A stretch of 32,561 nt of DNA from positions 1 to 32,561 of the forward strand of contig JAIQFX010000061.1 of NCBI GenBank assembly GCA_020073005.1, read 5' to 3'. Source of the DNA: Terriglobia bacterium (GTDB taxonomy: Bacteria > Acidobacteriota > Vicinamibacteria > Vicinamibacterales > CAVVIG01). Position numbers and translations under genes: made by a program. The notes below the pieces were generated by a model. The model did no database searches. It was not told the DNA's origin and saw only the letters and a list, made by a program, of their open reading frames with translations. Positions within the stretch are counted from its first letter, which is position 1. The number at the start of each line of letters is the position of its first letter. This document shows positions 15,323 to 32,561 of this stretch, piece by piece.

Positions 15323-15389
15323 CGTCGTCCTATAATTGGCCGGCGTCCGGGTCATTCTGCCACTGAACCGGCAGGGGAGGGACAATTCC

Positions 15390-16289: not shown

Positions 16290-16396
16290 CGCCCGGCCCC
16301 TCCCTTGTCGCGCCTGCAGCCGTCGCTGAACGGCGTTGACGCCGCCGTCCTCGTCGTGGCGTTCTCGGTCGCCACGTTCGCGCACAGGCGGCGGAC

Positions 16397-16412
16397 TATA
16401 CTTGCCGCGCCA
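16397..16412 (+). promoter_or_regulatory. Candidate -10 element for a leaderless aldolase transcript
   Basis: TATACT at 16397-16402 lies nine bases before the ATG of the aldolase-like gene. Transcription starting about seven bases after a -10 element would put the message 5' end at or next to the start codon, and no Shine-Dalgarno is present. No convincing -35 is seen. Confidence 0.4.
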
Positions 16413-17707
16413 TGGCCGACACCTCGATTCCAGACCTCGCGCTGACGACGATTCTCGACGCGCTGCACGGCGTGAACGTGCACGTCGCCCGGCAGTATCC
16501 GGGCGACACGGCTGCGCGCCAGCCCGTGCATACCGTGTACGGCGGCGCCCACCTCTTCAAGGCCGACGTCGCGAGAAAACTCGGTGCGGCGGCGCTGAAG
16601 TCGCTGCGCGATCATGCGCCGGACGCGGCGACGCTCGCGGCCGCCCTGAACTTCGACCGCGCGCTCGCCGAGCGCCTCTATCCGCGTGTGGTGGACAAGC
16701 TCACGCGCGAGCCGGTCGAGGATTTCCGGATCGATTTCGAGGACGGCTTCGGCAGCCGGCCGGATCTCGAGGAAGACGGCCACGCGCAGCTCGCCGCCAC
16801 CGAAGTGGCGAACGGCCTCTCGGACGGCACGCTGCCCCCGTCGATCGGCATTCGCATCAAGCCGTTCAACGAAGAGCTGAAGCGCCGCAGCCTGCGGACC
16901 TTCGATCTGTTCCTGACGCGGCTGCTCGATCGCGCTGCCGGAAAGCTGCCGCCGCAGTTCGTGATCACGCTGCCGAAGATCACGTCGGTCGAGCAGGTGA
17001 CGGCGCTCACGTCGGCATGCGAGGCCTTCGAGTACTGGCGGCAGCTGCCGGCCGGCACGCTGAAGTTCGAGCTGATGGTCGAGACGACGCAGTCGATCGT
17101 CGCGCCGGACGGCAGCGTCGCGCTGCCCCGCCTGATCGCCGCGGGCCGCGGACGCATCGTCGCCGCGCACTTCGGCACGTACGACTACACGGCGTCGTGC
17201 GGCATCACGGCCGCGCACCAGCACATGCGGCACCCCGCGTGCGACTTCGCGAAGGACGTGATGCAGGTAACGCTCGCCGGCACGGGCCTCTGGCTGTCGG
17301 ACGGCGCGACCAACGTCATGCCGGTCGGATCGCGCGAGACCGTCCACGCCGCGTGGCGCCTGCACGCCGAGCACATCCGGCATTCGCTCGTCACCGGCTT
17401 CTATCAAGGATGGGATCTGCATCCCGCACAGCTGCCGTCGCGGTACGCGGCCGTCTACGCGTTCTTCCTGGAAGGCCTCGACGCGGCGTCCGAGCGATTG
17501 AAGAACTTCGTGCAGAAAGCGGCGCAGGCGACGCTGGTCGGCGACGTCTTCGACGATGCCGCGACGGGACAGGGATTGCTGAATTACTTCCTGCGCGCGA
17601 TGAACTGCGGCGCGATTACTGAAGAGGAAGCCGTCTCGATGAGCGGCCTGAGCCTCGAAGAACTGCGCGGCCGATCATTTGTGAAGATTCTCCAGGGACG
17701 TTCTTAG
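16412..17707 (+). CDS. DUF6986-type aldolase / citrate-lyase / malate-synthase-like protein
   Basis: A 431-residue protein of the phosphoenolpyruvate-binding TIM-barrel superfamily. Motifs seen are IDFEDGFGSRPD and FVITLPKI (metal-binding acidic loop and barrel strand), FELMVETTQSIV (the Glu of the HpcH/HpaI site) and AAHFGTYDYTASCGITAAHQ (active-site loop). It best fits the DUF6986 family, which I recall from ureide-degradation gene clusters. Here it is convergent with the PreA-like gene and next to uricase, uraH, uraD, allantoicase and allantoinase. A role in using glyoxylate, for example by a malate-synthase- or aldolase-type reaction, is an inference from context. Confidence 0.75.
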   Translation: MADTSIPDLALTTILDALHGVNVHVARQYPGDTAARQPVHTVYGGAHLFKADVARKLGAAALKSLRDHAPDAATLAAALNFDRALAERLYPRVVDKLTREPVEDFRIDFEDGFGSRPDLEEDGHAQLAATEVANGLSDGTLPPSIGIRIKPFNEELKRRSLRTFDLFLTRLLDRAAGKLPPQFVITLPKITSVEQVTALTSACEAFEYWRQLPAGTLKFELMVETTQSIVAPDGSVALPRLIAAGRGRIVAAHFGTYDYTASCGITAAHQHMRHPACDFAKDVMQVTLAGTGLWLSDGATNVMPVGSRETVHAAWRLHAEHIRHSLVTGFYQGWDLHPAQLPSRYAAVYAFFLEGLDAASERLKNFVQKAAQATLVGDVFDDAATGQGLLNYFLRAMNCGAITEEEAVSMSGLSLEELRGRSFVKILQGRS

Positions 17708-17740
17708 TTTTCAGTTTTCACTTTTCAGTTTTTGGTTTCT
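17706..17740. repeat. 7-bp-period repeat between convergent genes
   Basis: Five heptads, AGTTTTC, AGTTTTC, ACTTTTC, AGTTTTT, GGTTTCT. The tract contains the last two bases of the aldolase stop codon and the stop codon of the PreA-like gene (17725), so both genes terminate in repeat DNA. Confidence 0.75.
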
Positions 17741-18846
17741 TCCACCGCGTACCCCTCCGCCTCGTACCCGCCGCGATAGTCCTTTTCGGTCGGCCGACGA
17801 ATCTTCGATTGCGCGACGACGCGATCGCGCCTGAGGCCGACGAAATCGCCGACGTGCTTCCAGCCCTTGGCCGCGTTCCTGTCGAGAAACCGCGCGAGCC
17901 CGTCGTTCAGCTCGCGAATGACGTTCGGCCCGACCGCGTGATCGAGCATTGCGGCCGTGCACACCTGCACCGTGCCGCAGCCGAGCAGGAAATAACTCAG
18001 CGCGTGCTCGAAGTTCGAGATGCCGCCGATGCCGGAGAACGCCTTGTAGGGAAACGCCTGCGTGAGCTGCGACATCTTGGCGAGCGACAACGGCAGGATC
18101 GCGGGGCCGCCCAGACCGCCGGTCGAGACCAGACCGTCCACGTTCACTTCGAAGTCCAGCGTCTCCGCGTCGATGAGCGGCAGCGACGTGAACGTGTTCG
18201 ACGACGAGATCGCGTCGGCGCCGCCGAGAAACGCGCCGCGCGCCTCGACGACGATGTCCGTCGTGGACGGCGTGAGCTTGGCCCACACCGGAATCGTCGC
18301 TATCTCCTTGACGACTTTCGTCACGATGGACACGAGCTCTTTGTCCTTCCCGACGTTCGATCCCATGTCGGGCCGGTCCATGTGCGGGCACGACAGGTTC
18401 AGCTCCAGCGCGTCGCAGCCCTGGCCCTGACACGCGATCGCGAGCTCCTGCCAGTGCCGCAGCTCGGTGTCGTTGCCCGAGCCGGCCATGATCGACGCGA
18501 CGAGCGCGTGCTCGGGAAACCGCTTCTTGATGCGGCCCAGGCGCGGCACCCACCAGTCGAGCGTCTTGTCGGAGATGAGCTCCCAGTTCCACGACGAGTG
18601 CAGCGCGGCGTTCGGCCGCTTTTTCATCGAGAGGTGCGCCGAGTCCGCGTCGGCGCGCAGAAACTTCGTCTTGGGCCCGACGACGTTCACCACGGGGTGC
18701 AGGCCGATCGTTTTCGTCACGACGCCGCCCCATCCGGCCTCGAACGCGCGCAGGATGTTCGACTCCGACTCGGTCGGCGGCGCCGACGAGAGCAGGAACG
18801 GATTGCGGAAGCGAATGCCGGTGAACGTGGTCGATAAGTCAGCCAT
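17725..18846 (-). CDS. preA: PreA-like dihydropyrimidine dehydrogenase (dihydroorotate-dehydrogenase fold), no ferredoxin domain
   Basis: A 373-residue FMN-dependent TIM barrel like PreA, the pyrimidine-reducing subunit of bacterial NAD-dependent dihydropyrimidine dehydrogenase. Visible motifs are NPFLLSSAPPTESESN at the N-terminus, ELNLSCPHMDRPDMGSNVG with the catalytic Cys, VWAKLTPSTTDI, SSSNTF and KAFSGIGGISN (phosphate site of FMN). E. coli PreA ends with two 4Fe-4S clusters; here the protein stops after GYEAEGYAVEETKN with no CxxCxxC motif, and no preT partner is adjacent. The last codons lie in a heptad repeat. The substrate may be a pyrimidine or a ureide relative, given the cluster. 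Confidence 0.8.
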   Translation of the reverse strand: MADLSTTFTGIRFRNPFLLSSAPPTESESNILRAFEAGWGGVVTKTIGLHPVVNVVGPKTKFLRADADSAHLSMKKRPNAALHSSWNWELISDKTLDWWVPRLGRIKKRFPEHALVASIMAGSGNDTELRHWQELAIACQGQGCDALELNLSCPHMDRPDMGSNVGKDKELVSIVTKVVKEIATIPVWAKLTPSTTDIVVEARGAFLGGADAISSSNTFTSLPLIDAETLDFEVNVDGLVSTGGLGGPAILPLSLAKMSQLTQAFPYKAFSGIGGISNFEHALSYFLLGCGTVQVCTAAMLDHAVGPNVIRELNDGLARFLDRNAAKGWKHVGDFVGLRRDRVVAQSKIRRPTEKDYRGGYEAEGYAVEETKN

Positions 18847-18859
18847 AAAGATTCTTGTC

Positions 18860-18901
18860 CAGCTCTCAGCTGTCAGCTGTCAGTCTTCAGTTCTCACTTC
18901 T
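18860..18901. repeat. 7-bp-period repeat overlapping the urate oxidase stop
   Basis: Six heptads, CAGCTCT, CAGCTGT, CAGCTGT, CAGTCTT, CAGTTCT, CACTTCT. The tract supplies the last residues (SEN) and stop codon of urate oxidase and runs toward the start of the PreA-like gene. Confidence 0.75.
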
Positions 18902-19726
18902 TCTCACTGTCGCCTCGATCAGACCGAACGGCTGATCCGTCGCGACGAAGATCTCGTTCGGGTTGTCGAGGCCGAATGGTGTCAAATCCACCAGGAGATG
19001 ATGCCGGTTCGGCAGCGTCAGCGTGATGTCCATCAGATCGGCGCACGCGGCGAGGGCGGCCTCGCCCATCGCGTACAGCGTCTGCTGCACCGATCGGCTC
19101 ATGTGCGCGGCGAAGGTTTCGACGAGCGCGCGGCGGATCCGATCGCGCGCCGCGAAGCCGGCCGTGCCCGGCCGATACGTCCACGCCGCGGTCATGGAGG
19201 TCGCCAGAATGCGATCCTCGGTCTCCGCGAGCGTCGTGTATCGATCGCGCGGAAATCCGGAGAACGCCGAGTCGGTCGTCTTCAGCACGACGAGGTTCGT
19301 CAGGCCGGACACGATCGTCTCGCCCTGCGCGTCGCGCGTGACGACGGCTGTCCACTGTTCGCCGCCAGGCTGCGCGAACGCGTGCGGATGCGGACGGCCG
19401 TCGACGTCCACGCGATCCCAGCGATGCTCGACCGCGCTGATGCGCGCGCGCGTCACGGCCGGCTTGCCCAGAAAGTGGATCGCGAGGCGGCTGGCGAACG
19501 CCTCGACATGATCGATCGGATCCTGCCGCGCGAGCGCGTAGACGGTGTTCTTCATCGTGTCGGTCGCCACGCACGGACTGTTGTCGCCGTCGACGTAGAC
19601 GCGATCGAAGGCGCCCTCGAGTTGAACGTCGATGGTGAGATCGACGATCTCGTGAGGGTCAAGCGCCCGTCGGACTTTCACCAGACGCACGCGAGATTTG
19701 CCGTAACGATTCCAAGCGAGTGTCAT
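18887..19726 (-). CDS. Urate oxidase (uricase)
   Basis: A 279-residue cofactor-free uricase, converting urate and O2 to 5-hydroxyisourate and H2O2. The tunnelling fold signature is clear: NRYGKSRVRLVKV with Lys10, VATDTMKNTVYALA with Thr55-Asp56 (the Thr of the catalytic dyad), LVVLKTTDSAFSGFPRDRYT and SVQQTLYAMGEAAL with the Gln that binds urate. The start at 19726 was chosen over upstream in-frame ATGs because the residues before it are encoded by an intergenic repeat. The message is followed by uraH-uraD order upstream, making one minus-strand pathway unit. The tail lacks the usual C-terminal Leu because it ends in repeat DNA. Confidence 0.92.
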   Translation of the reverse strand: MTLAWNRYGKSRVRLVKVRRALDPHEIVDLTIDVQLEGAFDRVYVDGDNSPCVATDTMKNTVYALARQDPIDHVEAFASRLAIHFLGKPAVTRARISAVEHRWDRVDVDGRPHPHAFAQPGGEQWTAVVTRDAQGETIVSGLTNLVVLKTTDSAFSGFPRDRYTTLAETEDRILATSMTAAWTYRPGTAGFAARDRIRRALVETFAAHMSRSVQQTLYAMGEAALAACADLMDITLTLPNRHHLLVDLTPFGLDNPNEIFVATDQPFGLIEATVRRSEN

Positions 19727-19738
19727 CTGGAAACACAT

Positions 19739-19822
19739 GTCACCACAGAGGACACGGAGGATACAGAGGAATGCAACGTGCACATTCTCACCTCCGTGTC
19801 CCGCGTGTCCTCCGTGGTTGAC
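19739..19822. repeat. 9-bp-period inverted repeat between uraH and urate oxidase
   Basis: The left side contains GAGGACACG, GAGGATACA, GAGGAATGC; the right side CCTCCGTGT, CCCGCGTGT, CCTCCGTGG. Arms of about 31 bases pair with few mismatches. The element fills the gap between the uraH stop (19824) and the urate oxidase start (19726). Confidence 0.75.
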
Positions 19823-19823
19823 A

Positions 19824-20156
19824 TCACGCTCCTCGGTACGTCGAGTATCCAAACGGGCTCAACAGCAGCGGCAGATGATAGTGCTCGTCGATGTCGCGCA
19901 CGTTGAAGGTGATCTTCACTTCCGGAAAAAACGGCACCGAGAGCCCGAGGTTGCGATGGTACGAGCCGACGTCGAACGTGAGGCGATACGTACCGGGCGA
20001 GATGGGGCCGTCGGTGAACGAATCGACGCGTCCCTTCCCGTCGGTCGACCCGCGGCCGACGGGCGTCCACTCGCTCGCGTGACGAATCTCGAGAATGACC
20101 GTCAGCCCCTCGGCCGGTTCGCCACGCGCGATGTCGAGCACATGCGTCGTGATCAT
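19824..20156 (-). CDS. uraH: 5-hydroxyisourate hydrolase (transthyretin-like)
   Basis: A 110-residue transthyretin-related protein that hydrolyses 5-hydroxyisourate to OHCU, the second step of urate breakdown. The family signatures are present: ITTHVLDIARGEPA with the catalytic His5 at the N-terminus, SFTDGPISPGTYRLTF, FFPEVKITFNV and HYHLPLLLSPFGYSTYRGA at the C-terminus. The usual last four residues are YRGS; here they are YRGA, so the Ser of the active-site tetrapeptide is Ala. The ATG at 20156 has AGGTG upstream. It starts seven bases after the uraD stop and is part of the same operon. Confidence 0.92.
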   Translation of the reverse strand: MITTHVLDIARGEPAEGLTVILEIRHASEWTPVGRGSTDGKGRVDSFTDGPISPGTYRLTFDVGSYHRNLGLSVPFFPEVKITFNVRDIDEHYHLPLLLSPFGYSTYRGA

Positions 20157-20163
20157 CGATCGG

Positions 20164-20652
20164 TCACCTGTTCTCCTCGAGCAGTCTGGCCAGCCGCAAT
20201 CGCGTGATCTTCCGCTGCTCGTCCGCGGCGACGGTCAGTTCGGCCGCGGGTTCGTTCGTCAGCCGGCGCTCGAGCAGGCCGAGGATCTCGGCCGCGCCCT
20301 TCCCGGTCGCGCAGACGATGAAAATGTATCCGAAACGGGCCTCGTACTCACGATTCGCGTGAGCCAGTCGCGCTCTGGCGGCCTCGGGCGCCGTCAGCGC
20401 CTGAGTCTGCTCTTCCGAGGCCCAGGCGGACGGCGATCGCTCGCCGATCCGCGGATGAGACGCGAACGCCTCGAGCCAGTCGGCAGGATCGAGCGACGCC
20501 CAGATCGCATCGGCCTTCGCCGTCATCGCCTCGGCGCTCGCGAACGGCCGCGCGGCGGTCATCTCGCGCGCCCAGCGCGTCGAGCCGCAACAGCGCTGCA
20601 GCGCGCGGGCGGCGGCGTCCGCATCGAGCGCGTTCAGGTCCTCGAGCTGCAC
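20164..20652 (-). CDS. uraD: OHCU decarboxylase
   Basis: A 162-residue helical protein that decarboxylates 2-oxo-4-hydroxy-4-carboxy-5-ureidoimidazoline to S-allantoin. The catalytic His66 lies in EAFASHPRIGE, the core signature of the family, and FGYIFIVCATGKGA forms the substrate pocket further on. The start is a GTG at 20652 with a weak AGAAG site. It sits between allantoicase and uraH on the same strand, so the three cofactor-free steps from urate to S-allantoin are complete in this window. Confidence 0.92.
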   Translation of the reverse strand: MQLEDLNALDADAAARALQRCCGSTRWAREMTAARPFASAEAMTAKADAIWASLDPADWLEAFASHPRIGERSPSAWASEEQTQALTAPEAARARLAHANREYEARFGYIFIVCATGKGAAEILGLLERRLTNEPAAELTVAADEQRKITRLRLARLLEENR

Positions 20653-20665
20653 GCCAGCTTCTCTT

Positions 20666-20692
20666 CTCTGCGAGCTCAGCGGGTTCTGCGAT
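20666..20692. repeat. 9-bp-period repeat between allantoicase and uraD
   Basis: Three nonamers, CTCTGCGAG, CTCAGCGGG, TTCTGCGAT, lie in the 51-base gap between the allantoicase stop (20704) and the uraD start (20652). They resemble the tract at 13852. Confidence 0.5.
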
Positions 20693-20703
20693 GATCGTCG
20701 TGC

Positions 20704-21708
20704 TTATGTCGGTCTTCCGTACACGCGAAGACGGCCGACGCCGCCGTCAGGAAAAATGTTGAACCGCACGTGCGTCACGTCGCCGATCGCGCGCAGCTCC
20801 TCCTCGAACGCGTGCCGCGCGTGCGGCTGGAGCGGCGTGCGCGGCAACAACTCGCGCCACGCCTGATCGAAGAGCGCCTGGCCCTGCGCGAGCGCGCCAT
20901 CCGCGAGTCGAAGGGCCTCGAGGCTGCACGCGCCGGGCGCGTTGCCCTTGAAATGGCGCGTGTCGACGCTCACACGGCGGACGGTCCCTTCCGCGCCCAG
21001 GCGGATGATCGTCCAGTCGTGCCCCGGACCGCGGCGCCGTTGTGTTTCCCACCCGTCGCCCATGTGCGTCGCGTCGCCCGGCATGATCAAGTTGTGACGC
21101 GATCCGAAGAACATGTCGCTGCACGCGACGACGATGCCGCCGTGCTCGACCGCCGCGAGATCGACGTCGCCCTGCCGGCGCAGTCCCGCCCAGTCGGCAA
21201 CGACGTCGCCGTGCACGCGAAGACGGGCGACGCCGCCGTCGGGAAAGATGCGCAGCCGGAGATGCGTGGCCGCCGTCCCGCCGTCCACGGCGATCAGATT
21301 GTGCGTATCGCCGGCAAGCGCGGTCCGCGGCAGAATCTCGCGCCACGCCGCGCGCGTGAGATCGTCGAGCGCCGGCAGACCGGAGAGATCGCACGCGTCG
21401 ATCGCGCACGATTCCGGATAGTTGCCCGTGAAAGTGGCGGTGTCGACGTCGACGCCGCGGACGACGCCCCGCGCGCCGAGGCGAATGAGACACCAGTCGT
21501 GCGCGTCCGGCCCGAGATCGCGGCGACGGCGCGTCTCCCAGCCGTCCATCCATTTCCCGCGATCGGTGTACTCGCCGTCGCGCCAGACCGGCGCCGCGGC
21601 TTTGATCAGATTCTCTTTCGCCGCGAAGAACTCGTCGTTGGCCGCGACGGCCGCGCCGCCGAGACGCTCGGATGCGAGATCCACGAGGTCGACGAACGAC
21701 GCCGTCAT
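20704..21708 (-). CDS. alc: Allantoicase
   Basis: A 334-residue enzyme hydrolysing allantoate to ureidoglycolate and urea. It has the two repeated jelly-roll allantoicase domains, marked by KWMDGWETRRRR with HDWCLIRLG in the first and MGDGWETQRRRG with HDWTIIRLG in the second; each half also contains HLRLRIFPDGGVARLRVHG or VRFNIFPDGGVGRLRVYG. The first ATG at 21708 overlaps the allantoinase stop as ATGA, so the two are translationally coupled. The protein starts [19 protein letters not shown], typical of this family. A following ureidoglycolate lyase is not seen. Confidence 0.93.
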   Translation of the reverse strand: MTASFVDLVDLASERLGGAAVAANDEFFAAKENLIKAAAPVWRDGEYTDRGKWMDGWETRRRRDLGPDAHDWCLIRLGARGVVRGVDVDTATFTGNYPESCAIDACDLSGLPALDDLTRAAWREILPRTALAGDTHNLIAVDGGTAATHLRLRIFPDGGVARLRVHGDVVADWAGLRRQGDVDLAAVEHGGIVVACSDMFFGSRHNLIMPGDATHMGDGWETQRRRGPGHDWTIIRLGAEGTVRRVSVDTRHFKGNAPGACSLEALRLADGALAQGQALFDQAWRELLPRTPLQPHARHAFEEELRAIGDVTHVRFNIFPDGGVGRLRVYGRPT

Positions 21709-22740
21709 AGGAGGCTGCCGCCGTAGGCGCGCACGAGACGCCTCTTGTCCCACACGCGCTCGCCGCGCACGAACGTCGTGATGACCCGGCCGAACAGCGT
21801 GCGGCCGGCGTAGGGCGTCAGCTTGTGGCGCTGCTTGAGCCGAGACGGATCGACCGTGGTCGCGATGTCCGGATCCCAGACGACGAGATCCGCGTCGAGG
21901 CCCGGCGCGATGCGGCCCTTCTTCTCGGTCAGTCCCGCGAGCGCCGCGGGCCGCTCGCTCATCCAGCGCGCGAGATCGGCGATCCGCGGGCGCGAGACGC
22001 CCTCGAGCTCGAGATCGGTTTCGCCGGGCTGCGAGCTCTGCACGAGAAACCGCGCGCGCGCGGCCGTCCACACCGCGGGCAGCGTCAGCTCGAGCGACGC
22101 AACTCCGCCCCACGCCGTCATGAAGTTGCCGGGCGTTTTGAGCGACGGCGGCGCGGGCGAATGATCGGTCGCGATCATGTCGATCGTGCCATCGTCGAGA
22201 CCCTCCCAGAGCGCCTCGCGGTGCGATGCTTCCCGGATGGGCGGCGCGCACTTGAACTCGGTCGCGCCATCCGGAATTTTTTCCGCGCTGAAGCTCAAGT
22301 AGTGCGGACACGTCTCCGCCGTGATCGGGACCCACGCCGTCTTCGCCCGCGCGATCGCGTCGACGCCTTCCGCCGACGACACGTGCACGATGTGCGTCGA
22401 GACGCGGAATTCTCCGGCGAGACGAATCATGAGTCGAATGGCCTCCACCTCCGCCTCCGGCGGATGGGAGGCGAGATAGGTCGCGTACGATTGCGGATTG
22501 AGGATTGCGGAGTGCGGATCGGGAGAAGATCCGGATTCCGCATTCCGCAATCCGCGATCCGCAATGCCGAGTTCCGCGTGGACCAACAGCGGCACCTTGC
22601 GCCTCGCCAGAATCGGGAGCGCGCGGCGCAGCTCGGCTTCGTCGACCGCGGGGAACTCGTCGACGCCCGACGGCACCAGAAAGCACTTGAAGCCGCGCAC
22701 GCCGGCGTCGACGAGGCCGTCATAGGCCAGCCGGATGTGG
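21705..22740 (-). CDS. Allantoinase, 5'-truncated at a sequence junction
   Basis: The 3' part of a cyclic amidohydrolase that opens allantoin to allantoate. It matches the family from [20 protein letters not shown] onward (about 22,700) and includes [38 protein letters not shown] (metal-binding Asp) and [18 protein letters not shown] near the end. The N-terminal third with the HxH metal site is absent: the frame stays open to about 22,760 but loses family resemblance near 22,715-22,740 and there is no valid start. A 27-codon in-frame insert encoded by heptad repeats (22,488-22,568) lies after LVHAE. It overlaps allantoicase at ATGA. Confidence 0.88.
22490..22565. repeat. 7-bp-period inverted repeat inserted in the allantoinase gene
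   Basis: On the minus strand the tract reads ATTGCGG, ATCGCGG, ATTGCGG, AATGCGG, AATCCGG, a short turn, then ATCCGCA, CTCCGCA, ATCCTCA, ATCCGCA. The two halves are mutual complements and would form a hairpin. It is translated in frame as 27 residues within allantoinase. Confidence 0.85.
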
Positions 22741-22765
22741 GGCGGCAGGAGACTGTTGGTGCGCC
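22715..22765. other. Junction 1: allantoinase (minus) to carB (plus)
   Basis: To the left the minus strand encodes allantoinase without its first third; to the right the plus strand encodes carB without its first two thirds, beginning at RAMEIVYD where a full CarB would read [13 protein letters not shown]. Both genes are cut at the same place and the codon style changes. This is either a rearrangement point or an assembly join. Confidence 0.85.
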
Positions 22766-23826
22766 GCGCGATGGAAATCGTTTATGACCGTGCCGGATTG
22801 CATCGCTATATGCGCGAGGCGGTGCGGGTTTCCGGCGACAATCCGGTGCTGATCGATCGTTATCTGAACGACGCGATCGAGGTGGACGTCGACTGCATCG
22901 CCGATGCCGAATCCGTCTATGTCGCCGGCGTGATGGAGCACATCGAGGAAGCCGGCATCCACTCCGGCGACAGCGCCTGTTCGCTGCCGCCCTACACGCT
23001 GGCACCCGCCACGGTCACCGAACTGAAGGCGGAGACCGAGGCAATGGCCAAGGCGCTCGGCGTCGTCGGCCTGATGAACGTGCAATACGCGATCAAGGAC
23101 GATGTCATATACGTGCTGGAGGTGAACCCGCGCGCCTCCCGCACCGTGCCGTTCGTCGCCAAGGCGACCGGCGTCGCGGTTGCCAAGATCGGTGCGCGCG
23201 TGATGGCCGGCGCGCGGCTCAGCGACTTCCATCTGGACGATCAGGCGATTGCGCCGCATGTCGCGGTGAAGGAGGCGGTGTTTCCGTTCGCGCGCTTTCC
23301 CGATGTCGATACGATCCTGGGCCCCGAGATGAAGTCGACCGGCGAGGTGATGGGGCTGGATTCCAGCTGCGAGCGCGCCTTCGCGAAATCCCAGCTCGGC
23401 GCAGGGGTGATCCTGCCGGAGGCGGGCAGCGTGTTCCTGTCGGTCAAGGATGCCGACAAGAAAGGCCTCCCGGCGCTGGCTCGCCGGCTCACCGAGATGG
23501 GCTTCACCATCATGGCGACCCGCGGCACCGCCGCGCGCATCCGCGATGCCGGCCTGCCGGTTTCAATTGTCAACAAGGTGCTGGAAGGCCGACCACACTG
23601 CGTGGACGCAATCCGGTCGGGCGAAGTTCAGTTGGTGATCAATACCGCGTCCACGCCGCAGTCGGTCGCCGATAGCTTCGCCATCCGCCGCAGCGCCCTG
23701 ACCCATGGCGTGCCGCACTACACGACGATGGCCGGCGCCCGGGCGGCGGTCCACGCCATCGCGGCCCTGAAGTCGGGGATGCTTGAAGTCGCGCCGCTCC
23801 AGTCCTACTTTCGCGGATCGTACTGA
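22765..23826 (+). pseudogene. carB: carB 3' fragment: carbamoyl-phosphate synthase large subunit, C-terminal third
   Basis: 353 residues matching CarB from about residue 720 of the usual 1,070-1,100. The second ATP-grasp domain is present from RAMEIVYD, with [34 protein letters not shown] and [20 protein letters not shown]; the allosteric MGS-like domain follows ([43 protein letters not shown]). The stop is natural. Sequence style ([20 protein letters not shown]) resembles Sphingomonadales. In-frame codons upstream of 22765 come from allantoinase antisense DNA. As placed here it cannot make active enzyme. No carA or pyrimidine gene is near. Confidence 0.9.
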
Positions 23827-23905
23827 ATCGTCCGTCGCGGCCAGGCGCCGGCCTGCCGCGGCGCTTGCGTTTGGCCGGAAGCCCCGCGTCTCATTGCATA
23901 CGACG
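23827..23905. other. Junction 2: carB to the DUF3455 region
   Basis: Right after the carB stop the sequence enters the C-terminal part of a DUF3455-type protein whose beginning is missing. The change lies between 23,827 and about 23,905. Together with junction 1 it brackets the 1.06-kb carB fragment with two truncated neighbours. Confidence 0.7.
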
Positions 23906-23986
23906 GGATGCGCCCAGTCAGCCGACGTCGGCAGCAAGGCGTTGGTGCCCTACACCGCCGACTACTTCTTCTACAAAGCCGAGTAG
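23905..23986 (+). pseudogene. C-terminal remnant of a DUF3455 protein
   Basis: The last about 25 codons of a DUF3455 protein, [20 protein letters not shown] then FFYKAE and stop. The complete gene downstream carries the near-identical stretch [20 protein letters not shown] at 24,829-24,890, and the DNA is also very similar. The remnant stops where the DUF3455 domain normally ends, whereas the intact neighbour continues into a propeller. It has no start or ribosome site and was probably cut at junction 2. Confidence 0.75.
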
Positions 23987-24032: not shown

Positions 24033-25931
24033 ATGAAGCCCCAACGTTTGTTCGCAGCCTTCGTAGTGAGTGGCGGCCTGCTCGTGTTGTCCGCCTGCGG
24101 GAGCAGCAACGAAGGCGCTCTCCCTCCCACGGCCACGAGCACACCGACAGCAACACTCACGCGGACACAGACGAGCACGTCGACAGCCACCGCGACCACA
24201 ACCCGTACGAACACGCCAACGCCAACGGCGAGCGCAACGCGCACGAACACACCAACCGCAACGGCCACGCAGACACAGACACCCACTCCGACGCTGACGG
24301 CAACTGCAACCTCGACGGCGTCTCCGACCTTCACGCCCACCGCGACGCCAATCGCCGTGCCCGACAATCTGCAGGTACCAGCGGGGAACAGCAAGTTCCT
24401 CGTGGGGCACGCCACGGGCACTCAGGACTACATTTGCCTGCCATGCCCGAACGCAATTACGCCTGCGGCGATGTGCCCCGCCTCCGGCTTCGCCTGGGCA
24501 TTCTTCGGGCCGCAGGCCACGTTGTTCGACGACAATAGCGAGCAAATCATCACCCACTTCCTCAGCCCCAACTTCAGCCCGCTCTCGCCTGAGACTAGTG
24601 GCACACTGCGCGCTACCTGGCAGGACTCCAACGACACCAGCAGCGTCTGGGCCAAGGCGATGGCCACGTCCACCGATCCTGCCTTCGTCGCGCCGGATGC
24701 GATTCCGTGGCTCCTGCTGCAGGTGGTCGGAGCCCAGTGCGGGCCGACCGGCGGCAACACGCTAACGGAGACCACCTTCATCCAGCGGCTAGCCACCTCA
24801 GGCGGCATCGCCCCCTCGACCGACAAATGCGCCCAAGCAGCCGACGTCGGCAACAAAGCGCTGGTGCCCTACACTGCCACCTACGTCTTCTACCAGGCCG
24901 ACACACCTTCCACGGCGGACTCGCTTTATATCGGCGATCAAACAGATCTGCCAACTGCCAGCGCCAGTACGGTGAAGCGTTTCGACGCCCAGACCGGACG
25001 GTGTCAGGGCGCCTTCGTCACCGCCGATAGCGGCGGTCTACACGGACCCCGGGGCCTCGTGTTCGACAACGCCGGCCCGCTTCTGGTCGCCAACCAGAAT
25101 CAGGATCTTCCTCTCAACGGTACGGTCCTGCGCTACGACGGCACCACCGGAGCGTTCTCGAAGGCGATCGTCCCTGACAGCGATCCGCACGCACCGTTTG
25201 GTCCCCGCGGTATGATCCTGTGGAACCACACCACCCTGTACGTGGCCGATATCGGCGCAGGGCCCGGAGCACCGGGAAAACTACTGGCGTTTACCAAGGA
25301 CGGGGAGTTTGTTGCCGATCGCACGCCTGATCCCGTGACCGAGTTTCCGGGCATGTTGGCAGCGGAGTTCCATCCGCGTGGTGTGGTGATCGGGCCGGAT
25401 CACCTCCTCTATGTGTCGAACGAGCCCGACCTCAACAGCGGGCTCGGAGGGCAAATCCTTCGTTTCGACCCCGAGACGGGGGCTTTCAAAGACGTCTTCA
25501 TCGCCAGTACGGGTGGCGTCAGCTGCGATTGCGTCAATGAGCTCAACCGGCCCGAGGGTGTCGTCTTCGGCCCCGACGGCAACCTGTACACCGCCGCCTT
25601 CCGAGCGGACCTGACCGACAGCGACAAGATCCTGATCTTCGCAGGCCCCGATGGCGCAAGCCCTGGCGCCTACGTCGGCAGGATCGACCTCGATGTTGCC
25701 GGTCAGGACCGTGAGTTCGCACAAGCCCTGCTCTTCGGCCCTGGTGGACGTCTTTTCGTCCCGATCAGCGGCATTTTCGGACCCGATGCGGGAGCCGTGC
25801 GCCGCTACGACGTGACCACCAAGGAGTTCGACGTCTTCGTGCCGCCGCGTCCGCAAGGCGGTCCTCTGGGAGCCCCGTGGTATCTGACTTTTGGAAAGAC
25901 GGATCCCGCAACGCTCGCCTACGGCGAATGA
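24033..25931 (+). CDS. Lipoprotein with Thr/Pro repeat linker, DUF3455 domain and NHL/SMP-30-type beta-propeller
   Basis: A 632-residue lipoprotein. The ATG at 24033 (AAGGAG nine bases upstream) opens a signal peptide ending in the lipobox LVLSAC with Cys22; an in-frame ATG at 23997 also has AGGAGG. Residues about 31-110 are a TPTAT/TNTPTAT low-complexity linker. A DUF3455 domain follows ([62 protein letters not shown]). From about residue 290 there are propeller blades with [51 protein letters not shown] and [17 protein letters not shown]. Fusion of the two domains is unusual. Probably exposed on the outer membrane; ligand unknown. Confidence 0.85.
24123..24357 (+). repeat. Coding Thr/Pro-rich repeat
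   Basis: Degenerate ACG/CCA/ACC-type codons encode repeated TPT, TAT and TNTPT units in the lipoprotein linker. Such linkers place an outer-membrane lipoprotein domain away from the surface and are often O-glycosylated. Confidence 0.8.
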
Positions 25932-26008: not shown

Positions 26009-26086
26009 TACCACTTCGGTGGAAGGAGACGAGACATGACCGCGAAGCGCCAAGCCACCACCTGCTTGCATCCCATTGACACTGCG

Positions 26087-26336
26087 CCTTTCACATTGAC
26101 AATGACGTCCACGGCCGTTAGGACTGCTGCCCGACTCGCCTACGTCCTGACCCAGTGCTGCGACGGGCCGAAGGCCTTGTTTTCCGAGCGCCAGGCACTG
26201 CACATCCTGCACGGTGATCGCGACGTCACGGTGATGGAGACGCCGGGCGTGGTTCATTTCTTCAGCGGGGTGGCGGCAGGGCTGTGCAGGCAAGAGAACC
26301 TTTGTCGCTTCGGCGACCTCTCAGAGCGCAGAGAGG
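26087..26336 (+). pseudogene. Decayed copy of the TolB-like lipoprotein family
   Basis: A fragment reading ARLAYVLTQCCDGPKALFSE then RQALHILHGDRDVTVMETPG, closely matching residues 47-85 of the gene at 28328. The DNA is also similar. A promoter-like segment (26087-26124) is shared with the gene at 28328, but the distance to LAYV is 39 bases here against 344 there, so about 305 bases carrying the leader, signal peptide and lipobox are deleted. Similarity ends near 26,336. Without a signal peptide and propeller it cannot work. Confidence 0.75.
26096..26124 (+). promoter_or_regulatory. Copy A of a shared promoter-like element
   Basis: TTGACA (26096-26101), 17 bases, TAGGAC (26119-26124), inside a segment shared with 28,103-28,149 (TGACACTGCGCCTTTCA followed by TTGACAATGACGTCC). 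It lies ahead of the decayed copy. Confidence 0.5.
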
Positions 26337-26393: not shown

Positions 26394-27860
26394 TCACCGG
26401 CGCACGGTACTCGCCCAGGGGCCGGCAAGCTCTACGGTTCGCGTGCCGTCGGCTTCGGTCACGAAGCCGCGCGTGTCGGTGAGCGCGCGGAGCCCGGTCC
26501 CATCCGGTCGCATCGCAAAGATCTGCCCGCCGTTGGATTGCGTCCCGGAGAGATTACAGCTGGTGTAGAACAGAACTGTCGCGGTGACCGAATCCACTCC
26601 CAAACCATACATACGGCACCCAGGTGGCAGGACAGCGGAGCATCCGTCGCGGCTGTGTTCTCCCTCACCAAAGTGCGTGAGCTGGCGCAAGTCGGTAGCC
26701 AGCCTGTCGATGGAGAAGATCTGACAGTTCTCGAACGGGTTCTCACGAAACGGATCGGCAGATGCGACGAAGAACACCCGTTGCTTATCCGCACTCAGAC
26801 GTGCATTGGCAGTATCTACGCGCCGAAAGTTCGTCAGCTGAAGCGCCTGATCGCGATCGAAGACAAAGGCTTCAAAAATTGCACCAGGACCGTTTACCGG
26901 CACGCCCGGCACCTGTACCCCTGCGGCGGCCGGCTCCTCGCCGGTAATTTCGGGAATCTCCACGATGTGGCCGCCGGGGGGCGCGATGACTTTGAGTTCC
27001 TGGGGTAGATCGCTGCCGTCAGCCTTGACGAGGAAGTAGGTGAAGCTGCCGTCCGGGTTGTTGGTGGCGAACACAATCGTCTCGTCATCCAGGAAGAACA
27101 GCGGTCCGATCGGGATCGCAGCGGGGTCAAGTCCGGGTGCGGGCGGGAGGTGGGTGACCTGGGTGCGCTTGCCGGTGACCACATCCACTGTCACGACCTG
27201 GACAGCGTCTTCGCCTTCGGGGTCAGGCCCCCGATCGCTAAAGACGATGGCCCGGCCGTTCGGGCTGAAATTTATTTGGGTGTTAAAGCTGGCTCGGAAA
27301 CCGACTGGACTGGTGAAATCCGCAACGACCCTGAAGCAAGCATCCTGACTGGCGTCGCCGAGCCGCTGTAAGCCGCTGCCGTCGGCATGCACCAAGAACA
27401 TCCCCTTCTGATCCTCTGACACCAAGCTGCCGGCGCCAAATCGGCGAAAGAGCGAGAAGTCATCCGCAACCTCGAACACGACGGTGGACCCGTCCCGGCT
27501 CACTCCCAGCCTCTGAAAGACACCGGCCGCCACTCCGACCTCGCCGATGCGCAGTCGGCCCAATAAGGAGCACAGCCCGAGCGCATCCGGCAGCGGCCCG
27601 ATCGGTGGGAATTGCAGCGCGGTCACCGGCTGACGGTCTGCCTGCCGTATGCGCAGCTCTTGCCGGAGCACGGCTTCCGCACGATCCACAATGCACGTAT
27701 CGTTGGTCACGACGTAGGCCAGCGTGCGAATGGCGGCCTCGGACGGTGCCGGGCTGCCACCGCCACCGCCGCCGCATGCAGCGAGCGCGAACGGTAGGGC
27801 TAACAGGCCCAGCGCCAGCGTAAACGGCCACACCGTAGATCGGTTCATGTGTTGCCGCAT
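26394..27860 (-). CDS. TolB-like beta-propeller lipoprotein, paralog 1
   Basis: A 488-residue lipoprotein; ATG at 27860 (or 27848, giving MNRSTVWPF). Lipobox LPFALAAC is followed by six Gly residues, then IRTLAYVVTNDTC. Propeller motifs are [72 protein letters not shown] and GGQIFAMRPDGTGLRALTDT, the last block with the WD40/PD40-like PDG turn. TolB-like propellers bind peptides or other ligands; this family is not assigned. It is transcribed opposite to the other paralogs and is tail to tail with the decayed copy. Confidence 0.82.
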   Translation of the reverse strand: MRQHMNRSTVWPFTLALGLLALPFALAACGGGGGGSPAPSEAAIRTLAYVVTNDTCIVDRAEAVLRQELRIRQADRQPVTALQFPPIGPLPDALGLCSLLGRLRIGEVGVAAGVFQRLGVSRDGSTVVFEVADDFSLFRRFGAGSLVSEDQKGMFLVHADGSGLQRLGDASQDACFRVVADFTSPVGFRASFNTQINFSPNGRAIVFSDRGPDPEGEDAVQVVTVDVVTGKRTQVTHLPPAPGLDPAAIPIGPLFFLDDETIVFATNNPDGSFTYFLVKADGSDLPQELKVIAPPGGHIVEIPEITGEEPAAAGVQVPGVPVNGPGAIFEAFVFDRDQALQLTNFRRVDTANARLSADKQRVFFVASADPFRENPFENCQIFSIDRLATDLRQLTHFGEGEHSRDGCSAVLPPGCRMYGLGVDSVTATVLFYTSCNLSGTQSNGGQIFAMRPDGTGLRALTDTRGFVTEADGTRTVELAGPWASTVRR

Positions 27861-27888
27861 TTAGGGGTCACTCACCTGTTTACCCGAT

Positions 27889-27917
27889 ATTGTACGGCTG
27901 TCATTGGGACACCCCAA
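27889..27917 (-). promoter_or_regulatory. Candidate promoter of paralog 1
   Basis: On the minus strand TTGGGG (27912-27917), 17 bases, TACAAT (27889-27894), which would give a leader of about 22 bases before the ATG at 27860. The -35 is weak. Confidence 0.4.
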
Positions 27918-28120
27918 CATTGGAACGAACCGAACCGCTGCAGAACGCTGCTTCATGCTACCTCTCTTGGTCAAGGTGAAGGCGCGTGCGTTTGGGAGGG
28001 CGAAGCCGTCGTGCTTCCCGTGCGAGCCGCAAACGTGACCGATGCCGAGGATGGTACGGAGAAGAGTACCGCTTTTACGTGCGGCGGGTCAACCTCTCTC
28101 CCTGACACTGCGCCTTTCAT

Positions 28121-28149
28121 TTGACAATGACGTCCGCGGCCGTTAAGGT
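28121..28149 (+). promoter_or_regulatory. Copy B of the shared promoter-like element, upstream of paralog 2
   Basis: TTGACA (28121-28126), 17 bases, TAAGGT (28144-28149), within the segment shared with 26087-26124. Because the segment precedes both an intact and a decayed copy and the -35 is perfect, it is likely the promoter, about 180 bases upstream of the start codon. Confidence 0.55.
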
Positions 28150-28327
28150 CGATCCCTCGACACGTACCCGGCCCGCACGCGGGCCACTCCGGCCCCCATT
28201 GCAAAGCGCACAAGTCCTCACACGGACTCCAAACGTCCCGGCAACTCGCGCGCCCGTGTGACAGGGGTTCTACAGTAAGAAAAGGGGGGCCCCTGCCGAT
28301 GAGAGAATCGAACACGGAAATCCGCCC

Positions 28328-29809
28328 GTGAATGGGCGCCCTCACATTCCCAGGACGTCGGTCGCTCACGGTATCGCCGTCATGTGTGCCGCTGTTCTGC
28401 TCGCCCTCAGCGCGTGCGGCGGCGGAGGGGACAGTAACGGCACTCCGCCCAGCGAGATCGGCACGCTGGCCTACGTGGTGACCGAGTGCCACGACGAGCC
28501 GAGGGGCGTCTTTTTCGAGCGCCAGGCGCTGCACGTCCTGCACGGTGATCAGGACGTCACGGTGATGAAGACCCCGGAATTGGGTCCGGTCTTCACCGGG
28601 GTGGTGGGACTGTGCAGGGCCTCCACCCTTTCCCGCGATGGCAGCCTCTCAATTGAGCGAGAGGCATTTCAAGGACTCGCGGTGAGCCCTGACGGAGCCG
28701 CGGTGGTGTTCGAAGTCTCAGATGACTTCTCCGTCAATCCTCCGTTGCCACTCCATCTGCCGCCGGAACAGAAGGGCATCTTCTTCGTGGGCGCCGATGG
28801 CAGCGACTTGCGCCCGCTGGGCCCACCCAGCCGACTGCCTTTCTTCGTCATCTCAAGTAGTGGAGCCAACTTCATAGGGCCAGGCTTCGCGTTCAGCCCG
28901 GACGGCCGGCTGGTCACCTTCGCCGACACGGGACCAGACGCGGCAGGCAACGAGGCCGGCCAGGTGGTCACGCTCGACGTATACAGCCGCCAGCGGCGGC
29001 AGGTGACGCATCTGCCGCCGGGAGTCCCACCTGCGGATTTTGCGCATATTCCAGGCGTCATATTGCCTGCCTTCATCGATAACCAGACCATCGGTTTCTT
29101 TACCGACGCATATGGCTTGACCCCCACCGGTAATCTCGCTCCGTTCACGGTGAGTTTGAGTGATGGAACCGTCAAAGCAGCCCCGCTTCCGGTGACTTTG
29201 CCGGACAGCCAGATCATTCCGACCTTCTTCATTACCGGCGACAAGCCGACCGCTATCGTTCTGGGTGTGCCCGGTAAACCGCAGAACGAGTTTCCGGGGG
29301 TGGCAAACCTTATCACGGAGGTTTTTGCCGTCGATGGCCCGAACCTGCTTCAACTCACCAACTTTCGGCGCGTGGATACCGGCGGCTCGATTTTTGACGT
29401 CGATCGGCAGACCGTGTACTTCAGTGCTTCCGCCAATCCCTTCCGGTCCAATCCGTCGGAGAACTGTCAGATCTTCTCGATCGACCGGCTCGGTGGCGAC
29501 TTGCGTCAGCTCACCCAGTTCAGCGAAGCGCCGCACGCAACGAGCGGATGCTTCCATTCCAATCCGCCCATCGTCGGATGTGCAGAAGCCATTCTCAAGC
29601 AAGATCCCAGAACGCGGATGCTGGTCTTCGACTCAACCTGCGATCCGCTCGGCACCAATAATCATTTTGGCGCTCAGATCTTCGCCATGCATCCGGACGG
29701 CAGCGGCTTGCGTCAGCTGACCCAGACGCAGGGCGTGGTGACCCAACCGGACGGCACGGTGACTCGCGAGTTGCCCGGCCCCAGCGCCTACGGGCCGTAT
29801 CTACCCTGA
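28328..29809 (+). CDS. TolB-like beta-propeller lipoprotein, paralog 2
   Basis: A 493-residue lipoprotein from a GTG at 28328; an ATG at 28382 would leave too short a signal peptide. Lipobox LALSAC is followed by Gly-rich GGGGD, then GTLAYVVTECHDEPRG. It shares with the other copies VSPDGAAVVFEVSDDFSV, PPEQKGIFFVGADGSDLR, FSPDGRLVTFADTGPD, QVTHLPP, LQLTNFRRVDT, NPSENCQIFSIDR and IFAMHPDGSGLRQLTQTQG. Cys residues in ENCQIF, SGC, GCAE and DSTCDP are kept in similar places, suggesting disulfides. It heads a probable operon with the barrel gene (58 bases) and paralog 3. Confidence 0.85.
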   Translation: MNGRPHIPRTSVAHGIAVMCAAVLLALSACGGGGDSNGTPPSEIGTLAYVVTECHDEPRGVFFERQALHVLHGDQDVTVMKTPELGPVFTGVVGLCRASTLSRDGSLSIEREAFQGLAVSPDGAAVVFEVSDDFSVNPPLPLHLPPEQKGIFFVGADGSDLRPLGPPSRLPFFVISSSGANFIGPGFAFSPDGRLVTFADTGPDAAGNEAGQVVTLDVYSRQRRQVTHLPPGVPPADFAHIPGVILPAFIDNQTIGFFTDAYGLTPTGNLAPFTVSLSDGTVKAAPLPVTLPDSQIIPTFFITGDKPTAIVLGVPGKPQNEFPGVANLITEVFAVDGPNLLQLTNFRRVDTGGSIFDVDRQTVYFSASANPFRSNPSENCQIFSIDRLGGDLRQLTQFSEAPHATSGCFHSNPPIVGCAEAILKQDPRTRMLVFDSTCDPLGTNNHFGAQIFAMHPDGSGLRQLTQTQGVVTQPDGTVTRELPGPSAYGPYLP

Positions 29810-29867
29810 CCCGCGAAACTGCATGGGTGCACCGCGGGGCCATTTCAAGGGCAAAAGAGGGAGCATA

Positions 29868-31151
29868 ATGTTGATGAGCGTCTTCACTCAAAGGGTGCGA
29901 GCACGGCTCGCTGCAGTAGCGGCGGGTGTGGCTGCCGTGGCATTGACAGCGTCGGTCGCCAGCGCCGGGAAGCTGGCCGACGTCTTCACCAGCGGCGAAC
30001 TGGCGGGGCTGAAGATGGGGCCCATCGGGCCGGCGCTTGCGAACACGGTGGCATCGACGTACCCGGTCGCGTCCGCCAGCTCCGGCGTGACCTACGTCTA
30101 CAATCCCAAGCTCGAAGCCTTCGAACGACAGGCGGGAGTCCTCGGCCCGATCATCGGCGAGCGCGCCGAGACCATCGGTCAGGGGCAGATCAACATCGGC
30201 GTGAGCTATTCCGCCGTGGACTTCTCGACGATCAATGGCGATAGCTTGGGCAACCTGGTCAACCAGCCGAGCGTCGGCGGCCGCGTCGTATCGTTCCCAG
30301 TGCCCGGCGGTGTGACGCTCAAGGACGGCCGGTTCACCACCTTCCTACCGGTCGAAGTCCAGGCCAACATCGACGTGCAGGCCGACATCGGCACACCGTC
30401 GATCACCTACGGCATCACCCCGGATCTGGATGTCAACCTGAGCCTGCCGCTCATCCAGACGTACCTCAATGTGAAAGTGAACGAGACGGTTCCCGACCCG
30501 CGGCTGCCGCAGTTCATGCTGCGCGACTGCAACCCCAACGGCCCCGCCGATGATCCGAACACGTGCAAGCCCAACGAGATCCGCCCAACCATGATCAACC
30601 ATCAGGCCGCGGACCGCGCCACGGGCTTCGGCGACCTTTTGCTGCGCCTGAAGTACACTATCCTGCGAGACAAGCCGCTCGATCTGGCCGCCGGGCTCGG
30701 CGTCAGCTTCCCGAGCGGCGACCCCGACAATTTCCAGGGCACCGGCAACTACCAAGTGCAACCGGCGCTGGTAGTGTCGAAGATCATCGCCGAGCGTTTC
30801 GAGCCGTTGCTCAACTTGGGCGTCAATATCAACGCCGACAACGTCGACCGGAGCAGCTTCCACTGGGCGGTCGGTGGCACGGCGGCGGTCTACGGTCCGC
30901 TGACCGCCGCGGCGGTGTTCCTCGGCCGCAATGAGTTCAATGCGCAAACCGATTCGGTCAGCGAGCCGTTCTTCTTCCAGATCAACCGCAACGACTACTA
31001 CGACTTCTCCTTCGGCATGCGCTGTCTGTTCGCGGAGACCGGCGTCATCTCGGCCAATGTCATCGTGCCGCTCAACCGTGACGGCTTGCGGGCCGATTAC
31101 ATCCCGACGCTCGAGGCGGAATACGCCTTCACCGGGCCGTGGAACAGGTAG
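29868..31151 (+). CDS. Outer-membrane beta-barrel protein, transporter-like (MetA-pathway-of-phenol-degradation type)
   Basis: A 427-residue protein from the ATG at 29868 with GAGGGAG five bases upstream; MLMSVFTQRVRARLAAVAAG leads a cleaved signal peptide ending ASVASAG. The mature part has alternating amphipathic strands (INIGVSYSAVDFSTI, ITPDLDVNLSLPLIQTYLNV, GFGDLLLRLKYTILR, LDLAAGLGVSFPSGDPDN) with an aromatic C-terminal part EYAFTGPWNR. These match outer-membrane barrels annotated as transporters or phenol-degradation MetA-like proteins, often used as a channel for hydrophobic molecules. It lies between two paralogous lipoprotein genes. Confidence 0.8.
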   Translation: MLMSVFTQRVRARLAAVAAGVAAVALTASVASAGKLADVFTSGELAGLKMGPIGPALANTVASTYPVASASSGVTYVYNPKLEAFERQAGVLGPIIGERAETIGQGQINIGVSYSAVDFSTINGDSLGNLVNQPSVGGRVVSFPVPGGVTLKDGRFTTFLPVEVQANIDVQADIGTPSITYGITPDLDVNLSLPLIQTYLNVKVNETVPDPRLPQFMLRDCNPNGPADDPNTCKPNEIRPTMINHQAADRATGFGDLLLRLKYTILRDKPLDLAAGLGVSFPSGDPDNFQGTGNYQVQPALVVSKIIAERFEPLLNLGVNINADNVDRSSFHWAVGGTAAVYGPLTAAAVFLGRNEFNAQTDSVSEPFFFQINRNDYYDFSFGMRCLFAETGVISANVIVPLNRDGLRADYIPTLEAEYAFTGPWNR

Positions 31152-31157
31152 GAGTCA

Positions 31158-32561
31158 ATGACCGGTTTCCAGTTTTCCATTTCCTGTTGCCGGTTTCCCA
31201 TTCTCTTTCTGACCGCGCTGCTTGGCCTCACCGCCTGCGGTGGCGGCGGCGGCGGAGAGGGCACGCCGCTCACCGGGCCGGCGCAGATCAGCGGTACGCT
31301 GGCTTACGTGGAGACCGAATGCCGCGGAACCGCCGAGGGTTTGTTCGAGCACCAGAGCCTGCGCATCCGCCAGGGGGATCGTGAGCCGGTGACGGTCTTC
31401 GAGACGCCGGAGGTGTCGGTGCCCGGGGAGGGTTTCTGGTGCGCCGTTTGGGTGGGCGGGCACTTCGGCGACGGCTCGGTCGCGCGCGAGGCGTTTCAGC
31501 AGGTCACCGTCAGTCCCGACGGTGCCAGCGTGGCCTTCGAGGTGACCGACGAGTTTTCCGTCGATCCGCACCTGCCGCTCAATCTGCCGCCCGAGAAAAA
31601 GGGCATCTTCTGGGTGCGCGCCGATGGGACGGGCGTGCCTCGCAAGCTGGGACCGCCGAGTCGGGAGCGTAGCTTCTATATCACCGGAGGAAACTTCATC
31701 AATGGCCCTACTTTTGACCTGGGGTTCAGTCCGGATGGCGGGACGCTGGCGTTCGTCGACAAAGGCCCCGACGCGGACGGTCACGAGGCCGATCAGGTCT
31801 TCACGATTGATGTCGCGACCGGCACGCGCACGCAGGTGACCCACCTGCCATCGTCGGTTCCGGCCGCAGGCTATCCACCTGACGCTCCGACCATGCGCGG
31901 TACTGTTTTCGTCGACGACCAAAGGATCAAGTTCAAAAGCACCGCCAATCCGAACGACGTGAATCCAAAGGGCGAGTACCTGATTATGACGATCAAGACG
32001 GACGGGTCCGATCTCCAAGTGCCCCTCCCGATTACCGTTCCGTTGGCAGGGAGCCAGGTCGACCTGCAGTTCGTCATCACCGGGGGCAGGCCCCTGGCCA
32101 TCAATGTCGAATACGCGGGCCACCCGATCAACGACCCTCCGCTCGGGGGCGTGCAGGAAATCTGGGAGGTCTTCGTGGTCGACGAGGAAAAGAAAGCGCT
32201 CCAGTTGACCAACTTTCGCCGCATTGACACCTCAGCCGGGGCCGTCGATCCGGACGGGGAACATGTGTATTTCTACGCCTCCGCCGACCCGTTGGGCACC
32301 AATCCGTCTGAGAACTGCCAGATCTTCTCGATCGACCGAACGGGGGCCGATCTGCGCCAGCTCACCAACTTCCGCGAGGTCGACCATTCCCTCACGGGCT
32401 GCGATTTCGAGACGAACGGGCTCACTGGTTCCAGGCCGATCGGTTGTGCCTTGTACTTCACCTATCAAGATCCGCGGAGTCGGACCCTGCTCTTCTATTC
32501 CGAGTGCAACCCCCTCAACAACATGAACCCCAACGGATCACAGATCTTTGCCATGCGGCCG
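31158..32561 (+). CDS. TolB-like beta-propeller lipoprotein, paralog 3 (3' end off window)
   Basis: Reading from the ATG at 31158 (GTAGGAG seven bases upstream, six bases after the barrel stop) gives 468 in-frame codons to the last base, with no stop. The lipobox LLGLTAC is followed by GGGGGG. Shared motifs are GTLAYVETEC, VSPDGASVAFEVTDEFSV, FSPDGGTLAFVDKGPD, QVTHLP, LQLTNFRRIDT, NPSENCQIFSIDR, LRQLTNFREVDHS and SQIFAMRP at the edge, where paralog 2 has about 35 more residues. The signal peptide is encoded by a heptad repeat, unlike in the other copies. Confidence 0.85.
   Translation, partial: MTGFQFSISCCRFPILFLTALLGLTACGGGGGGEGTPLTGPAQISGTLAYVETECRGTAEGLFEHQSLRIRQGDREPVTVFETPEVSVPGEGFWCAVWVGGHFGDGSVAREAFQQVTVSPDGASVAFEVTDEFSVDPHLPLNLPPEKKGIFWVRADGTGVPRKLGPPSRERSFYITGGNFINGPTFDLGFSPDGGTLAFVDKGPDADGHEADQVFTIDVATGTRTQVTHLPSSVPAAGYPPDAPTMRGTVFVDDQRIKFKSTANPNDVNPKGEYLIMTIKTDGSDLQVPLPITVPLAGSQVDLQFVITGGRPLAINVEYAGHPINDPPLGGVQEIWEVFVVDEEKKALQLTNFRRIDTSAGAVDPDGEHVYFYASADPLGTNPSENCQIFSIDRTGADLRQLTNFREVDHSLTGCDFETNGLTGSRPIGCALYFTYQDPRSRTLLFYSECNPLNNMNPNGSQIFAMRP
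31162..31210 (+). repeat. 7-bp-period repeat coding for a lipoprotein signal peptide
   Basis: Seven heptads, CCGGTTT, CCAGTTT, TCCATTT, CCTGTTG, CCGGTTT, CCCATTC, TCTTTCT, are translated as the hydrophobic part of the signal peptide (GFQFSISCCRFPILFL). Confidence 0.65.

Follow-up and report, generated by a model that had tools for sequence, protein, structure and literature searches.

Among outer-membrane systems, the SusCD-type importers are lipoprotein-barrel pairs. TolB, in turn, has an N-terminal Rossmann-like domain that precedes its propeller, as described in an excerpt of PMC12204202. The PF13557 family is placed by OMPdb under COG4313, the specific diffusion channels (excerpt of PMC9581022), and the COG4313 structure paper, in which the word "lipoprotein" does not occur, presents 12-stranded channels implicated in the uptake of hydrophobic molecules, with a mature length of 270-320 amino acids (PMC4493636).

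In the current study, we analysed a window of 32,561 nucleotides (positions 1 to 32,561 of contig JAIQFX010000061.1, assembly GCA_020073005.1, Terriglobia bacterium), in which an earlier note had seen, at 26394-32561, a candidate undescribed system, in which TolB-like lipoproteins diversified by duplication surround an outer-membrane barrel. The local duplication around a barrel is supported by our results. The reading as an undescribed system is not, since the shared sequence blocks align to PD40-type blade repeats and PF13557 is matched by the barrel. The lipoproteins and the barrel are real genes of known protein kinds on a misassembled contig (Table 1), and as a whole we favour, as a fairly probable explanation, a misjoined foreign stretch that carries duplicated propeller lipoproteins with an operon-like barrel partner.

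The paralog profile aligns repeatedly along PD40 proteins (PF07676), but the paralogs carry in addition a lipid anchor with a Gly run after it, and six further Cys that are invariant. Their likeness to TolB of the Tol-Pal system (TIGR02800) is one of fold, seen on a poor model, and of a weak profile match (24.3 bits, paralog 3), whereas they possess a lipobox and score far under 343 bits. As for the COG4313 channels (PF13557; e.g., Pput2725, SphA and TcpY), the barrel passes the PF13557 gathering score, but its frame is longer and is flanked by propeller lipoproteins.

Table 1. Features of the right part of the window and of its junctions (aa, amino acids).
Feature	Position	Strand	Evidence or remark
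Allantoinase, native, 5' end cut by contig join	21705..22721	-	TIGR03178 profile positions 142-439 of 441 only
Chimeric junction 1	22721..22722		G001:C70 tracks window up to 22721, C50 beyond
carB 3' piece, foreign (Alphaproteobacteria, probably Acetobacterales)	22757..23826	+	PRK05294 positions 714-1056 of 1058
Probable junction 2	23826..23907		carB DNA similarity to L036 stops at 23824
Second DUF3455 gene, 3' end remnant	23908..23982	+	85% identity over 75 bases to 24827-24901
DUF3455 + NHL-repeat lipoprotein, Thr/Pro-rich linker	24036..25931 (region from 23865)	+	PF11937 2e-16, PF01436 1.7e-4
Decayed fourth copy	26077..26290	+	57% aa identity, E 4.2e-18
Paralog 1, predicted PD40/TolB-like propeller lipoprotein, 488 aa	26394..27860	-	
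Paralog 2, predicted PD40/TolB-like propeller lipoprotein, 493 aa	28328..29809	+	
Outer-membrane beta-barrel, PF13557 / COG4313 channel kind	29823..31151	+	Alternative start 29868
Paralog 3, at least 468 aa, runs off contig end	31158..32561	+	PD40 20.8 bits, TIGR02800 24.3 bits

Lipoprotein paralogs and their blade repeats

The three paralogs announced in the earlier note are borne out by the open frames and by an alignment of the paralogs (A1), which gives paralog 3 an identity of 51% and paralog 1 an identity of 46% to paralog 2; the decayed fourth copy is borne out by its sequence similarity to paralog 2. Their similarity to paralog 2 (E 7.1e-109 and 5.3e-94) is far beyond chance. ENCQIFSIDR and LQLTNFRR.DT are invariant in all three paralogs, and the other motifs that had been listed as shared vary in part: LAYV.T occurs in 3/3 paralogs, but paralog 1 lacks the TEC ending; paralog 3 has QVTHLPS for QVTHLPP; and in place of FEV.DDFSV, paralog 1 shows FEVADDFSL and paralog 3 FEVTDEFSV. 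The last PDG block of paralog 3 would fall beyond the contig end, outside the visible sequence. The lipobox plus Gly tract was read correctly (LSAC, LTAC and LAAC, each followed by a Gly run), with the lipobox Cys, identified by motif only, within the first 30 residues of all three paralogs. The conserved Cys were also found as claimed, comprising the lipid Cys and six more that are invariant across the three paralogs and that may possibly staple the propellers through up to three disulfides.

In pairwise comparisons of the paralogs, the fraction of aligned codons that differ at positions 1/2/3 is 0.34/0.30/0.55, 0.40/0.35/0.57 or 0.40/0.34/0.61; third positions thus differ most, so that the paralogs look like coding genes under protein-level constraint. 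The decayed copy, which lies to the left of 26394, combines a piece of an upstream region (93% over 44 bases to 28103-28145) with an N-terminal coding part (80% over 156 bases to 28466-28618), its start and signal peptide being missing.

Searches against Pfam and NCBIfam returned no model above cut-off for the lipoproteins. The nearest was PD40 for paralog 3, with the three paralogs scoring 13.9, 14.2 and 20.8 bits, all under the gathering score of 20.9. TolB (TIGR02800) was far off, at 10.2, 12.3 and 24.3 bits against an NCBIfam cut-off of 343.15, and no Tol-Pal gene occurred among the 14 window frames put to NCBIfam. The A1 profile matches longer proteins in a sample of the phylum and in a second class. 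In a local hmmsearch with this profile, covering 16 loci and leaving out L026 (same contig as L016), open frames from 16/16 loci were matched, with 6-8 matched stretches in each of the ten strongest (L016-L025), 5 each in L148 and L149, and 2-5 in the four weakest (L009-L012). The LTNF..VD and ENCQIFSIDR blocks map to successive blades in alignments of L023, L016 and part of L021, and all three of the 16 loci that were put to Pfam (L023, L016 and L148) were PD40 proteins at 48.5-88.4 bits. The repeated blades are thus homologous to known PD40 proteins. One blade motif also repeats inside paralog 2, with 77% DNA identity over 52 bases (29467-29518 vs 29674-29725). L016-L025 stem from ten phylum-sample genomes, of which eight belong to a single family (f20); their PD40-type proteins, encoded by open frames of 819-1026 residues, contain many ADPLG.NP....IF.I..DG..L.QLT blades.

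The shared blocks were also considered as a new domain, which was rejected, as they align to propeller-blade repeats of the PD40 kind. An AlphaFold model built from the three-row alignment is strand-rich and poor (mean pLDDT 53, pTM 0.59), and with this low-confidence model as query Foldseek placed TolB at ranks 1-3 against the PDB (E 3.1e-11 to 2.9e-10), with TM-scores by query length of 0.32-0.34; propellers of S9 peptidases came next, one with a TM-score of 0.42. The N-terminal part of the model consists, at low confidence, of strands and one short helix. Sequence searches of the PDB gave nothing useful (best E 0.13). Based on the blade homology, the paralogs are very probably PD40/TolB-like beta-propellers, without formal Pfam membership.

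The barrel, its neighbours and a possible function

The barrel matches PF13557 with 45.3 bits (E 1.5e-11; gathering score 22) over profile positions 14-221 of 242. Its frame spans 442 amino acids including the signal, against the 270-320 amino acids of mature COG4313 channels. It had no match in the PDB by sequence, and its structure model was unusable (pLDDT 32) and too poor for a structure search. The spacing of paralog 2, barrel and paralog 3 given in the earlier note, 58 and 6 bases, is exact when the first gap is counted to the ATG at 29868; counted to the ATG at 29823, the gap is 13 bases. This spacing is consistent with an operon-like unit of paralog 2, paralog 3 and the barrel, which would be transcribed together.

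We propose, as the most likely mechanism and a tentative one about which we are somewhat doubtful, that a hydrophobic or aromatic compound would cross the outer membrane by way of the barrel, while the propellers, tethered to this membrane, would act as accessory subunits that bind either the substrate or the mouth of the channel; the paralogs may have diverged for different ligands or partners. A further elaboration, which we consider unlikely, is a two-component outer-membrane uptake or receptor complex of disulfide-stapled propeller lipoproteins and a COG4313-type barrel, from a lineage outside the searched collections and with its lipoproteins diversified by local duplication. Such a complex would be somewhat alike to the SusCD-type importers, but with propellers as the lipoprotein part.

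On the other hand, the lipoproteins may neighbour a PF13557 channel gene by chance and serve some other purpose in the envelope or outside the cell (as binding protein, enzyme or decoration), a serious contender to which we give a little short of an even chance. PD40-type propellers and PF13557 channels are both common in databases, which counts for this possibility, as does the position of paralog 1 on the other strand, with no barrel frame recognised beside it or beside the decayed copy. Distant relatives of the barrel (at most 37% identity) occur in 27/390 other genomes of the phylum. In a test weaker than one of co-occurrence in the true host, we inspected 29 loci from the 37 listed barrel matches, with all 27 genomes represented. 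None of the 29 had a propeller lipoprotein as neighbour: flanks of about 1.5 kb around the barrel match, shorter at contig ends, contained no A1 match with an E of at most 10, and the window's own locus showed both paralogs beside the barrel in the same test. Against a chance neighbourhood stand the gaps of 58 and 6 bases, which set the barrel between two same-strand paralogs.

Relatives in genome samples

With the A1 profile, none of the searched samples yielded a full-length relative of the lipoproteins beyond this contig; all searches except that of the family covered samples, and in those of the phylum and of the G447, G430 and G445 groups the best 3-4 candidates per genome were scored. 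Five of 60 relatives matched, including G000, the other four at 21.8-27.6 bits. Within the family, G000 was the only one of 27 genomes with a match at E 1e-8; two same-genus and 24 other family genomes had none at this threshold, two of them giving weak scores of 27.6 and 22.7 bits. In the phylum sample 11/396 genomes matched at E 1e-8, again including G000, and the other ten reached at most 53.8 bits. At E 1e-6, there were 2/331 matches in the class of G445 (33.6 and 32.3 bits), and 0/395 in the phylum of G447 and 0/337 in the class of G430, both searched without a positive control, so that these two empty results are no evidence of absence. Among 23 genomes behind loci chosen from the 80 carB loci discussed below, one matched (21.4 bits).

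A pattern scan of species genomes with A1, in which either of two short peptides has to be matched exactly, returned 137 pattern matches, none of them a relative. The corresponding scan of viral contigs gave 0/27 relatives for A1, 0/5 for the barrel and 0/13 for the DUF3455 protein, and tblastn of paralog 2 and the barrel against plasmids gave no match. A phage origin was rejected, as paralogs 2 and 3, the pair submitted, had no match in PHROGs.

A chimeric contig and the source of its right part

Around position 22,700 the cut ends of two genes face each other, those of an allantoinase gene (reverse strand) and of carB (forward strand). The allantoinase piece is 89% identical to the allantoinase in a 528-residue open frame of the same-genus genome G001, and contig C50 of the own genome begins inside allantoinase at the cut (97% over 32 residues, 333-residue open frame). 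Window positions 22603-22721 equal C50:1-119 in 119/119 bases, and G001:C70 tracks the window to 22721 (83%) and then C50 (87-91%). The missing allantoinase part therefore lies on C50, in the gene order of the same-genus genome. The native part at 13844-22721 also holds an NCS1 allantoin-type permease and a PreA-like dihydropyrimidine dehydrogenase, apparently forming with allantoinase a cluster for purine/pyrimidine catabolism. About 35 bases of unassigned sequence separate the join from the carB piece.

The own genome has a nearly complete second carB match on contig C89, in a 1461-residue open frame to which the window piece is only 54% identical, and nearly complete matches in 9/12 relatives are 53-56% identical; among the remaining three, the carB match of one is split in two pieces (53 and 62%) and the other two show weak matches only. 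By contrast, among the best 80 of at least 592 matches, the window piece shares 82-85% identity with L035-L037, records that bear the titles Rhodospirillales bacterium, Acidobacteria bacterium and Proteobacteria bacterium, followed by Belnapia at 78% and Asaia at 74%. We take Belnapia and Asaia to belong to the Acetobacterales, and read the carB piece accordingly. In L036 (CAJCIS010000146.1), which bears the title Acidobacteria bacterium, carB is of the alphaproteobacterial type and precedes greA-like and ilvA-like frames; this record is mislabelled, contaminated, or a second case of the same mixing.

Downstream of carB, L036 and L037 have frames for greA and threonine ammonia-lyase (ilvA-like), recognised by eye, and the window has the DUF3455 remnant. 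Because different genes follow carB and the similarity ends at 23824, a second join at 23,826-23,907 is probable. In the DUF3455 and NHL-repeat lipoprotein that follows, the lipobox LSAC and the start at 24036 were both picked by eye.

The tetranucleotide correlation of the right part to the genome is 0.825, the lowest of all chunks compared; three left-part chunks reach 0.943-0.958, and 19 own chunks, of 8,661 bases each except for five shorter ones, reach 0.866-0.967. In composition the right part resembles the left part (0.81-0.83) more than it does L036 (0.69) or L037 (0.76), and its best matches among the fetched loci come from mixed groups and do not exceed 0.839. Composition by itself does not tell the source of the right part. 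From the Thr/Pro-rich linker we suspect a Binatota-like phylum as one candidate for the true host. For the assembled genome, one basis for regarding it as acidobacterial is a sub-threshold acidobact_VWFA match in the window (65.2 bits vs 81.25).

Taken as a whole, this evidence makes it almost certain that the lipoprotein/barrel stretch is foreign and was misjoined at base 22,721 to an assembly that we infer to be acidobacterial. That the lipoproteins instead belong to this genome, as a lineage-specific gain from elsewhere on the chromosome that was misplaced on the contig, would fit the moderate distance of the right part (0.825), which resembles the left part more than it resembles L036 and L037, but is very improbable given its composition under all 19 own chunks, a join that passes through a foreign carB piece, and the lack of any match at E 1e-8 in the 26 other family genomes, two of which are of the same genus. 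Least probable of all, to the point that we give it hardly any weight, is a real join at 22,721, with a foreign segment recombined in part of the population and both paths natural: the 119 identical bases common to both paths are as in a mixed-population branch, but the segment opens with a headless carB piece of another group, the junction genes allantoinase and carB are not mobile genes, and the sequence probably switches origin once more over the next 1.2 kb or so.

With the stretch read as foreign and misjoined, claims on gene order across 22,721, or on the presence of these genes in the assembled genome, would be wrong. If the association of lipoproteins and barrel is true in the real host, the pairing would give COG4313 channels a propeller partner.
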